From Mollicutes bacterium (GTDB taxonomy: Bacteria > Bacillota_I > Bacilli_A > RF39 > UBA660), in assembly GCA_012837765.1 (NCBI GenBank), contig DUQO01000029.1:1-33664 (forward strand): a stretch of 33,664 nt of DNA. The letters are read 5' to 3'. Below are positions 24,662 to 33,664 of this stretch, one piece after another. Under the pieces are notes generated by a model. It saw only the letters and a program-made list of their open reading frames with translations, did no database searches and was not told the DNA's origin. Numbering within the stretch: position 1 is the stretch's first letter; each line of letters opens with the position of its first letter. The position numbers were made by a program, and so were the translations under genes.

Positions 24662-24688
24662 AAAGTTCGAAACAATATTTCGAACTTT
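24662..24688. terminator. Bidirectional terminator between convergent genes
   Basis: AAAGTTCGAAA-CAATA-TTTCGAACTTT. Confidence 0.85.
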
Positions 24689-24701
24689 TTATTTTGATTT
24701 T

Positions 24702-27455
24702 CTAATCTAAAGGAATAAAATCCTTTCCAGAAATGTATCCGATTGTTACAGATCCATCTCCACCATTACCACCTTTCACAGCACATGGACCAGACACACC
24801 ACCAGCAGCTGTAATGGTTCCACTATTTTCATAATTGTTAATATAAAATATATTAACTGAACCACCACCAGAAGATCCACCAGAAGCTGCAACACCAGTA
24901 TTATAACCAACTGGGAAATGTGAAGAACTACCTCGTGATTCAATCACACCATTATTATAGATATTTTTACTATAAATAACTAAGAGTCCACCTGTACCAT
25001 CGTCTGCTGACGAAGGAGCATTTGCTGTAACCGTTTTATTTGCACCTGCGGTTGGCCTTGCATCTCGACCACCTGGATTTCCAGAACCACCAGATGAAAC
25101 ATACATTGTACTAGAAGTTCTACGCCCCACAGCGTTACCTCCTGGTCCTCCATTAATGCTACCATCTTTACCAGTAACAGGAGAATCTGCGGCTGAAGAA
25201 GCTCCTCCTCCACCAGTACCACCTGAGTATGATGTACCTGCTGCACCATTCCCACCCTTGGTTGCTGATCTCATTGAAGCACCAGAGCCACCACCACCAG
25301 TTGCTCTATTTAATCCACCTTCACCATTGATACCATTAACTTGACCTTTTACTGCTAACCCACCAGCTCCACCGATAGCTGGAATATATTCATAAGTATC
25401 ATCACTATTATTCCATAAATATACATTTTGCCCTTCCGCTATAGCACCACGAGCAGTCATTGAAATAGTACCGTTGTTAGTTAAAGTTCCTGAGACATAT
25501 ATTATCATACCTTTTTTCCTAGTTGTTGGTGTTACCAACACACCAGATTCAATAGTTAGATCACCATTATACTTTACTACTAATATTCTTTCATCAGAAA
25601 CATCATCACCTAAATAAACCGTTGATCCATCTTCTTGTTTATAGATAGTGTCACCATTGATATTGATAAGTTCTATATTATATGTTTCTTGATTGATAAG
25701 TATATCATAGTTACCATCAAGAAAACCATCACTTGCAATAGCACCTAAAATACTATCAGTCACAGTCGGATTAACAAATACCTTTCTACTAACAGTTGTA
25801 ACATTACTATCTGAATCGATAACTGAATAAACCACATTATATTCTCCAATTATATGTGGATTAACATTACTAGTTACAATTATTTTGTCTGTTAAATCGC
25901 CATCTTCGGCATCAAATGCTGTTGCACCTTGATCTTTATAAACATCGCCTTGTTTAATGCTGATTACTTTTTCACCAATAATATCTATTGCAGGTTCATC
26001 GCCTAATCTGACAAATGTTATTCTTGCAAACCCAGCTCCAAAATTACCTATCATTGTGGAATTGCCATCAATTGAAGGCATTGAAAATTTTCCATCTATC
26101 GTAGTAGAACTTTCAAAAACTTTTGTAGAATAATGAATTGATTGACCTGTATGCTCCCCTGTCTCATCTATAGCATCACAACCGGTATATCCAGAAATGA
26201 AAGACGAACCACCTGTTGCTGATTGCGAGCCAGCTGATGTTCCATTATGTTTAGAATAGCCTCCATAATATCCTCCACCTGCACCACTAGATGGTGTGTA
26301 ACCATGGTTTGTTCCAGGCTGCCCAATTCCAAAAGCATATCCTGTGGTTTGAGTAGCACCAGCTGAATAGGATATTGGGTCACTACTTAAAGTTCCACCT
26401 GCTCCTCCAACGCTTCCATAAGTACTTCCTGCTCCTCCAGCAGCAACCATGATTCTGCTTCTTAATGAATTAACATCATTCCAGGGCCCATCTACTAGCC
26501 TTACATCAGTAGCACCACCACCACCGCCACTTCCTTCATCATCATCTTTATCATTTCCGCCTTTAGCACCACCATTAAATCCACCATCTCCACCAATTTT
26601 ATTAGATGGCGAATCAAAACCAGCTCCACCTACATAAATATAAAGAACCTCATCCTTATCTAATTTTATAATTCCCGTTGTATAAGCTCCTGCACCACCA
26701 GGGTTGACTAAAGAACCGTTTTTTCTTCCCTTACCACCACTTGCTCCCCATAATTCAATCTTGTATTTTCCAGTTGCAGTTGATTTAAAAGTTTGATAAT
26801 CACCAGTGTGTGAATATTCACTTGTTCTTTTAACGACTTGTACCTCTCTTATTACTGTTGCTTCATTATTGTTATTATCTTTAACAGTATAAGTAAGAGT
26901 ATATACTCCTTCTACATTTTCATCTACTTCACCAGTTATTTGTACTTTGTCACTTAAATCAACACCTTTAACGTCAAATGCACTAACACCAGCATCTTCA
27001 TAAGGTTCACCTAAAAAGGCAGCAACTCTTTTACCTCCAACAAGAGAAATAGTAGGACCCATATCATCCGTTACGCATTCATCTAAATCTTCCGTTACTT
27101 TAATATTTCTAATAGTACCACAAGCAAATAAACCATTCCATTCATTTATACCATTTAGTACTAACATATAATCGTCATCTTTTAATTCAATTTTAACAAG
27201 ATTATAATTACTTGAATCTAAACCAAGTTGTTCATTCATATTCTCTTTTGTAACCAGTAATGGATCAAAATTTTCATCTTTAAGTTTTCTATATTTTACA
27301 GCTCTAAGAACCATCTTAGCATTGCTTCTAAAAGCACTGATGCGTGAATTATTAACTAAATTTGAAATTGTAGGAATAGCAATTGCTAAAATTATCACTA
27401 GAACAACTATTACCGATAATAATTCTATTAATGTAAAACCATTTCTTTTATTCAC
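24702..27455 (-). CDS. Giant prepilin-anchored glycine-rich, Ig-like surface protein
   Basis: NGFTLIELLSVIVVLVIILAIAIPTISNLV prepilin N-terminus; two DUF5011/HYR-like modules (GEPYEDAGVSAFD…, GDVYKDQGATAFDAEDGDLTDKI…); ALK-type glycine-rich domain (YKIELWGASGGKG…GGGGGATDVRLV…MVAAGGAGS); second Gly-rich C-terminal domain. GTG start. Confidence 0.88.
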   Translation of the reverse strand: MNKRNGFTLIELLSVIVVLVIILAIAIPTISNLVNNSRISAFRSNAKMVLRAVKYRKLKDENFDPLLVTKENMNEQLGLDSSNYNLVKIELKDDDYMLVLNGINEWNGLFACGTIRNIKVTEDLDECVTDDMGPTISLVGGKRVAAFLGEPYEDAGVSAFDVKGVDLSDKVQITGEVDENVEGVYTLTYTVKDNNNNEATVIREVQVVKRTSEYSHTGDYQTFKSTATGKYKIELWGASGGKGRKNGSLVNPGGAGAYTTGIIKLDKDEVLYIYVGGAGFDSPSNKIGGDGGFNGGAKGGNDKDDDEGSGGGGGATDVRLVDGPWNDVNSLRSRIMVAAGGAGSTYGSVGGAGGTLSSDPISYSAGATQTTGYAFGIGQPGTNHGYTPSSGAGGGYYGGYSKHNGTSAGSQSATGGSSFISGYTGCDAIDETGEHTGQSIHYSTKVFESSTTIDGKFSMPSIDGNSTMIGNFGAGFARITFVRLGDEPAIDIIGEKVISIKQGDVYKDQGATAFDAEDGDLTDKIIVTSNVNPHIIGEYNVVYSVIDSDSNVTTVSRKVFVNPTVTDSILGAIASDGFLDGNYDILINQETYNIELININGDTIYKQEDGSTVYLGDDVSDERILVVKYNGDLTIESGVLVTPTTRKKGMIIYVSGTLTNNGTISMTARGAIAEGQNVYLWNNSDDTYEYIPAIGGAGGLAVKGQVNGINGEGGLNRATGGGGSGASMRSATKGGNGAAGTSYSGGTGGGGASSAADSPVTGKDGSINGGPGGNAVGRRTSSTMYVSSGGSGNPGGRDARPTAGANKTVTANAPSSADDGTGGLLVIYSKNIYNNGVIESRGSSSHFPVGYNTGVAASGGSSGGGSVNIFYINNYENSGTITAAGGVSGPCAVKGGNGGDGSVTIGYISGKDFIPLD

Positions 27456-27633
27456 ATGTATAACCCCTTACTCTTCTTTAACAAATATAATATTAGTTAT
27501 GCTTTTATTAGTATGCTATTATAAATTAGTTTTTATCAATTTCATCAAAGTAAACTTTGACTAAATCGGTTCTTAAATCCCCTTTCTATTATCATCTTAA
27601 AAAAAAGCGTAGGGCAATTATAACAGTTGATAT

Positions 27634-27661: not shown

Positions 27662-28320
27662 TTATTTTACTTTCCTTTTATATCTTTTTACATTTATAGC
27701 CTTTTCTTCATATATAGAATAATTAGTGAATAAAACAGCTGATTCTTCAAATGTACCAATTACAAAGCCGATATCCTTTTTATTTACTCCTATGTTTGAT
27801 AATGAAGGTATAATCATGAAAACAAGATTAGGTAATTCAAAATAACCAAATTTATGATAATGCCTTGTATTGCTATATCAATGCCTTTTGCATTATATAA
27901 TATATTATTACTAAAATAATGAGCCATTATTATCCTGACATTATTAATAAATATTGGTGAAGGAGCTTTTTGGAAATATATTATATCTTTTCTTTTACTA
28001 GCAATATATTTTAAAATATCAAAATTATTATTATACATATGCGAATTATCATGATTTCCTTTGATGCAATGTGTTTTTATTCCTGATACTTTAGGATAAT
28101 TATATATAAAGTGATCTGCCTGTTCTTTAGCACCAATTACTTTTAAACCCTCAGTTGAATATGATAGAATTCCATCTACCAAATCACCTAAATGAAAAAT
28201 TGTTTTTATGTTGTTTTTATCTATTATTTCTAGGGTTTTATTAACAGCATATAAATCTTCATTTTTGCTTCCAAAATGAGTATCCGATATAAAAGCAATC
28301 CTATTATCAGTAATTATCAT
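27662..28320 (-). pseudogene. YfcE-like metallophosphoesterase with frameshift in the GHxH motif
   Basis: SDTHFGSKNED…GDLVDG…KGNHDNSHMY…MAHYFS…IDIAIQG; the other frame resumes (G)HYHKFGYFELPNLVFMIIPSLSNIGVNKKDIGFVIGTFEESAVLFTNYSIYEEKAINVKRYKRKVK*. Shift at about 27861-27864. Confidence 0.88.
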
Positions 28321-33093: not shown

Positions 33094-33664
33094 TTAAAGT
33101 CCTTCACCGACAGTTAAGACAGCCCGAAATCCACTATAGTTTAATGCTCCTCCACTGCTAATTGTAAAATAAAACGGTCCCGAAACGGTGCTATGATTGT
33201 AATTACCTCCGCGACGAAACCAAGGATTATCGACTTTTGGCATATAAGAATAGTCACTATACCATGCTATCCCACCAGTACCTACACTACTTGTTTCATA
33301 TAATGCATCGCCTTTAGACGAGATAGTTAATTTGTAATTATCTGATTCACTATCAGTTTCAGCCACTTCATATACATCTTTATATTTTGAGTGTGATGTG
33401 TAAAAGCTATTACATATGTTGTTAAATTTGAGTGTGAATTATCTACATAAACAGATACATATTCAAAGGCTCCACCTGACATATCATATATGCCATAAAT
33501 GTTACCAGTTGTACTTGCTTTTACTCCATCAGTTGTATGGTACTCATTACATATATCTTCATTAGATGCATCAACACTACTACCTGCACACCCAGTCTTA
33601 TATGAATTGTTTGAATTGTTCCAAATTTCATTTGGATTACCATACTGTGATTTTGATAGATATG
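33094..33664 (-). pseudogene. FGE-sulfatase-like domain protein, frameshifted, 5' end outside window
   Basis: Upstream frame YLSKSQYGNPNEIWNNSNNSYKTGC…STTGNIYGIYDMSGGAFEYVSVYVDNS; downstream frame NSFYTSHSKYKDVYEVAETDS…NPWFRRGGNYNHSTVSGPFYF…SGFRAVLTVGEGL. Confidence 0.7.

Follow-up and report, generated by a model that had tools for sequence, protein, structure and literature searches.

The gene and its domain architecture

The stretch analysed here, referred to as the window, comprises 33,664 nucleotides (contig DUQO01000029.1) of a Mollicutes bacterium whose genome is a 1.0-Mb draft that is 94% complete. The gene of interest encodes a protein of 917 residues in which the N-terminus of a type IV prepilin is joined to a glycine-rich domain (GRD) of the kind found in the ALK and LTK receptors (Table 1). 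A first-pass annotation, made from the sequence alone, had read this protein as a candidate tip adhesin or a new surface filament. The open reading frame (ORF) is real and is encoded on the minus strand, the plus strand of the same interval being riddled with stops on inspection of its reading frames.

Table 1. Positions of the prepilin gene, its domains and its flanking signals in the window.
Feature	Position	Strand	Details
917-aa modular prepilin gene	24702..27455	minus	GTG start 27455, stop 24702-24704
Prepilin leader MNKRNG, aa 1-6	27438..27455	minus	Gly at -1, then FTLIE, Glu at +5
Pilin module, aa 1-130	27066..27455	minus	Modelled as a long helix (aa 9-59), then four strands
Ig-like domain 1, PF16403, aa 136-207	26835..27050	minus	Pfam; modelled beta-sandwich
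ALK/LTK glycine-rich domain, PF12810, aa 228-481	26013..26774	minus	Pfam E = 6.6e-49
Ig-like domain 2, about aa 489-562	25770..25991	minus	Second PF16403 stretch; modelled strands 489-562
Uncharacterised Gly-rich C-terminal domain, aa 563-917	24705..25769	minus	No Pfam family
Shine-Dalgarno-like AAGGGG	27464..27469	minus	8 bases upstream of GTG; read from sequence
Candidate hairpin then T-run, AGTTCGAAA..TTTCGAACTTTTTATTTT	24662..24689		By-eye reading of sequence

The N-terminus, MNKRNG^FTLIE, is that of a bona fide type IV prepilin, as first proposed. In a Pfam scan of the whole protein the N_methyl family matches residues 1-27 over its curated cut-off (E = 3.6e-6), and the TIGR02532 prepilin domain of NCBIfam is also over cut-off. 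The short charged leader, the glycine at -1, the glutamate at +5 and the hydrophobic helix that follows are together those of a class III leader. In the full-length AlphaFold2 (AF2) model, the four strands of the pilin module fall at residues 84-92, 95-102, 110-113 and 118-121, with a predicted local distance difference test (pLDDT) score of mostly 70-90. The top 50 Foldseek matches shown for this model include no pilin and consist of Ig-domain and other surface folds. The model was built on alignment A3, a first full-length alignment having been discarded with C-terminal homologs misplaced onto the GRD.

Beyond the pilin module the domain order is also as originally described, with two Ig-like modules flanking the GRD and a second glycine-rich domain at the C-terminus. 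PF16403 is found in two stretches (E = 1.3e-36), and Ig-like domain 1 matches bacterial Ig domains in Foldseek. The two copies of PF16403 and the PF12810 domain are not specific to pilus biology and are thus extra domains of the sort that make a pilin modular. The Pfam scan found neither a kinase domain, so that the protein is no ALK/LTK receptor tyrosine kinase, nor the IPR008707 beta-propeller of the PilC/PilY1 tip adhesins.

The glycine-rich domains and the ortholog

The GRD scores 167.5 bits against a PF12810 cut-off of 24.5, and in a profile search it finds ALK (E = 1.4e-10) and LTK (8.7e-6). Its template-free AF2 model, made from 29 family members, has a pLDDT of 93.7 and a predicted template-modelling score (pTM) of 0.92; by prediction the domain is folded, in line with the first-pass view of it. 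The top 21 Foldseek matches to the PDB are all ALK or LTK chains (E = 1.4e-8), with a template-modelling (TM) score of only about 0.5. The same fold occurs in phage virion and tail-type proteins among the predicted viral structures of BFVD, with TM scores up to 0.76 and E-values to 5e-17. These phage relatives surfaced through the fold search, and a tblastn search of phage genomes with the GRD gave no match. Some of the BFVD virion-type proteins are annotated as 'receptor protein-tyrosine kinase', apparently merely for containing a glycine-rich domain, which is likely to be a database misannotation. Across the bacterial GRD family the strands and glycine motifs are kept, whereas several loops vary in both sequence and length, which suggests a scaffold with changeable binding loops.

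For the C-terminal glycine-rich domain, searches of Pfam, PHROGs and PDB profiles returned nothing convincing. Relatives are present in five of 141 same-family genomes, counting the source genome and that of the ortholog, and the domain may be a second head. Its family includes loci L195, L196, L198 and L200, with tandem copies in ORFs of 2,253-2,917 residues; weak relatives are also seen in viral contigs L204-L211.

A genome of the same genus (G001) carries a collinear ortholog of 917 residues with no indels, 76% identity and a ratio of nonsynonymous to synonymous substitution rates (dN/dS) of 0.23, and the gene is under purifying selection. Constraint is strongest in the GRD (82% identity, dN/dS 0.16), followed by the C-terminal domain (79%, 0.22), with lower identity in the Ig domains and stem (65-73%). 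Since the ortholog is free of indels at this dN/dS, and since PF12810 is present in none of 14 control genomes, the combination of domains is not a product of chance. The ortholog record (DUVE01000015) is a 'Mollicutes bacterium' metagenome-assembled genome (MAG) with the isolate code AS08sgBPME, which a biogas-reactor survey (PMC7038595) uses as well. The recurrence of this code means that the gut setting assumed in the first-pass annotation is not established for the window.

Pilus machinery and glycine-rich pilins in the family

The window itself contains no pilus-assembly genes, as had been noted, but such genes are present elsewhere in the genome, where a search for pilB, pilC and pilD found all three. 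The gene for PilB (T2SSE, E = 4.2e-126) is at C52:9564-10898, next to those of two minor pilins. Contiguous genes at C2:10406-13648 encode PilC, which has a pair of T2SSF domains, PilD (C2:12500-13267), in which A24_N_bact and Peptidase_A24 are both present, and a small prepilin. The source genome therefore has the assembly ATPase, platform protein and prepilin peptidase expected alongside a modular pilin. PilB is also found in 137 of the 145 same-family genomes sampled. Given this ordinary type IV machinery, and a stem that closely resembles small pilins of the same genome, the idea of a new surface filament was rejected.

The genome contains 22 N_methyl matches, or approximately 22 prepilins, several of which carry other modules. 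Four small tandem pilins on contig C20 look like candidates for the major pilin and share 36-43% identity with the stem of the 917-residue protein; when stems of other modular pilins of the genome are included, the range is 36-48%. The other large prepilins bear Ig arrays, a LamG/ConA-like lectin module or an FGE-like module, so that this very small genome encodes several modular pilins, the 917-residue protein among them. The minor pilins adjoining pilB in the source genome are short and lack a GRD, which is found instead on the dispersed 917-residue pilin and on a protein of 353 residues.

Among the 145 genomes sampled in the family, 66 encode PF12810, some of them as many as 20 times; a phylum-wide sample turned it up in just two genomes from outside the family. 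Thirteen of 150 GRD places, from 11 genomes, lie within 3.2 kb of pilB, against 1.8 expected within a 6-kb limit, a comparison whose Poisson value is a guide only, the genomes being related. Most of these places lie about 0.84 or 1.4-1.5 kb from pilB, two distances that recur because one or other of the two minor pilins adjoining pilB carries the fused GRD. Locus L145 has the order pilC-pilD-pilB-minor pilin with GRD, L188 has a GRD on both pilB-linked minor pilins, and L176 encodes prepilin, PF16403 and GRD in an order matching that of the 917-residue protein. These fusions provide the strongest new evidence that the GRD is used on pili. As with the 917-residue protein, the GRD minor pilins of L145, L168, L176 and L188 combine a prepilin N-terminus with a GRD and are served by the same type of machinery, and that of L176 also has PF16403; they differ in being shorter (479-681 residues), in their minor-pilin stem and in their position beside pilB.

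The second GRD protein of the source genome, at G000:C42:31230-32291 (L029:16230-17291), has an atypical N-terminus, NKRGIVLSGLVYALL. The class to which it belongs (KGF..LY, without a glutamate at +5) recurs with GRDs, is located beside pilB in L168 and may represent an unusual prepilin type.

Several further features of the genome concern its secretion systems and the state of its pilin genes. Among the T2SSE matches above cut-off there is one PilB-like ATPase, the others lying in a Tad-like cluster or beside TadB-like genes, and none of them is a separate retraction ATPase of the PilT type. A Tad-type pilus cluster (G000:C42:19045-23254, with CpaE-, CpaF-, TadB-, TadC- and TadE-like proteins) exists alongside the type IV pilus, and a TadA/VirB11-like ATPase with TadB-like partners near small repeated membrane proteins (G000:C51:18231-27511) is possibly another secretion or conjugation-like system. 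Prepilin paralogs broken by frameshifts or stops are seen at G000:C2:13787-15296, C36:4489-6103, C43:14688-16206 and C60:2867-3226. With several paralogs interrupted in this way, phase or antigenic variation was considered, but the copies are only 65-94% alike; in a draft MAG, decaying copies, phase-variable genes and assembly errors cannot be told apart. Many contigs, including C8, C11, C20, C23, C25, C60, C63 and C69, end in or beside modular pilin or GRD genes sharing 65-94% identical DNA, so that the draft assembly likely breaks at this family and undercounts its members.

At the locus itself the 917-residue prepilin gene looks monocistronic. The candidate hairpin and T-run is a common 3' end for the prepilin gene and a convergent gene, which we take to encode an AAA ATPase. 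Upstream are an ORF that is presumably a metallophosphoesterase and then what we take to be the DnaJ, DnaK, GrpE and HrcA genes. The downstream ATPase gene and the sigma-factor-like and RsmE-like genes are the same next to the ortholog. Upstream of the prepilin gene, a stretch at 27771-27896 that takes in the 3' end of the metallophosphoesterase ORF shares 80% identity over 127 bp with DNA that lies immediately 3' of a modular pilin gene on C2, and the right end of the window (33094-33664, minus strand) is a fragment of another FGE-like modular pilin.

Probable display on type IV pili and its alternatives

The 917-residue protein is probably a type IV modular pilin that displays the GRD as a binding head on type IV pili. 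A type IV filament is the most plausible carrier because relatives fuse the same head to pilins that are encoded beside pilB. In this mechanism, PilD would cleave after MNKRNG, and PilB and PilC would then pull the pilin module into a type IV filament together with the small pilins of the genome. The roughly 787 residues beyond the stem would restrict the subunit to the tip or to a rare position at the side. Ig-like domain 1 may serve as a spacer that holds out the GRD, with Ig-like domain 2 holding out the further glycine-rich domain, whilst the GRD, with its TNF-like/poly-glycine scaffold and variable loops, may be the head that does the binding, to a ligand of cell-surface, matrix or glycan type.

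A number of observations weigh against this interpretation. The gene is not close to the pil genes and is isolated among housekeeping genes. After removal of one false call, a prepilin N-terminus is present in only 22 of 105 distinct GRD ORFs (the larger classes plus the others listed), many other GRD proteins having ordinary signal peptides or secretion signals or being giant surface proteins. Since most of the sampled GRD proteins are not prepilins, the domain is a surface module of general use, recruited by pilins but not specific to pili. The full-length AF2 model (13 sequences) reaches a pTM of only 0.39: the stem and the Ig domains are modelled, whereas the GRD is not resolved and the C-terminus at most in part. 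The genome encodes ComEC, and for that reason the pilus may serve DNA uptake. Moreover, processing, incorporation into a filament, the tip position and any ligand or adhesion are steps that we infer. As a whole, the earlier interpretation is partly supported.

Some of these observations fit a membrane-anchored surface protein, in which the prepilin N-terminus would be only an anchor or export signal and the protein would never enter a filament. Such a protein would avoid packing 787 awkward residues into the body of a filament, it would resemble the many GRD proteins of the lineage with ordinary signal peptides or membrane anchors, and a gene outside the pil locus would be no surprise. Nonetheless it is unlikely, as the leader retains both Gly(-1) and Glu(+5), the model of the module is that of a pilin, a prepilin peptidase is encoded in the genome, the same head is carried by pilB-adjacent pilins in relatives, and the large modular pilins of Streptococcus sanguinis are found in filaments (PMC9934059).

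It is rather improbable that the glycine-rich domains associate among themselves or with neighbouring cells of their own species, giving microcolonies or matrix without attachment to a host. The apparent origin of the nearest relative in biogas reactors, not in a host, is in keeping with this, as are the roughly 22 prepilins of the genome, several of which differ in their modules; variable GRD loops, though, suit a diversity of external ligands equally well if not better. More doubtful still is a subunit of a competence pilus whose glycine-rich domains bind DNA or help the pilus to reach it. ComEC, together with a single PilB-like ATPase and no PilT-like protein found, does resemble the Com systems of Gram-positive bacteria, yet no feature of the GRD points to DNA binding, the solved GRDs (ALK and LTK) bind protein ligands, the phage relatives are tail or virion proteins, and Com pili have no need of 900-residue subunits.

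The preferred reading of the 917-residue protein, a binding module grafted onto a large pilin, follows an established concept (PMC8179133, PMC9934059). In S. sanguinis, PilB is a pilin with a vWA adhesin module (PMC8179133), whilst PilC consists of pilin, Ig and concanavalin-like lectin modules and binds sialylated glycans and heparin-type chains (PMC9934059). The large modular pilins of this organism are filament subunits (PMC9934059), and it has been argued that large modules fit only at the pilus tip (PMC8179133, PMC9934059). The 917-residue protein shares with S. sanguinis PilC the order of pilin module, Ig-like domain and binding module, a monoderm host and a minimal machine of the PilB/PilC/PilD type. 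Unlike PilC, it has a GRD head in place of the lectin, a second Ig-like domain and an extra glycine-rich domain, is much larger and is encoded outside the pil cluster.

The GRD resembles the ligand-binding region of ALK and LTK (TNF-like plus poly-Gly; PDB 7nx3, 7lrz, 7nx1) in both sequence profile and fold, but the 917-residue protein has no kinase and no EGF-like region, and its GRD is carried by a pilin. The fold is also common to glycine-rich phage virion and tail-fibre proteins. In Pam3 gp24 (PDB 7ypx) a TNF-like domain is combined with a Gly-rich domain, and the variable tip of the latter has been proposed to bind the receptor (PMC9608196); gp24 is a weak fold match to the GRD (Foldseek E = 0.75), and phage fibres, unlike the 917-residue protein, are trimers with their own attachment domains.

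A survey of modular pilins describes more than 1,200 of them in 264 architectures, one of 860 residues (PMC8179133). The word 'glycine' does not occur in its main text, although Dataset S1 of the survey may still list a GRD architecture. Literature searches, which did not extend to this dataset, returned no work that connects PF12810 or ALK-type domains with pili, and nothing pertinent on ALK/LTK domains in bacteria. Within the literature searched, a GRD binding head on a type IV modular pilin has not previously been described.

The distribution is best read as an expansion of GRD heads on pilins in one family of uncultured Bacilli. A broader proposal, to which we give even chances, is that across this small-genome family the GRD serves type IV pilins as a binding head that can be exchanged, gained and lost by orthologous minor pilins of the pil locus and acquired by giant dispersed modular pilins, and that it defines a new class of type IV pilus tip adhesin built on a scaffold of phage virion proteins and animal receptors. 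The GRD may also explain why some phage proteins are named 'receptor protein-tyrosine kinase'. The finding would extend the modular-pilin idea to a receptor-type domain that is common to animals and phages and, as this is a single clonable domain, the question of binding is testable. Type IV pili are near-universal in the sampled uncultured family, and the 917-residue protein provides a concrete candidate for what these pili bind with.
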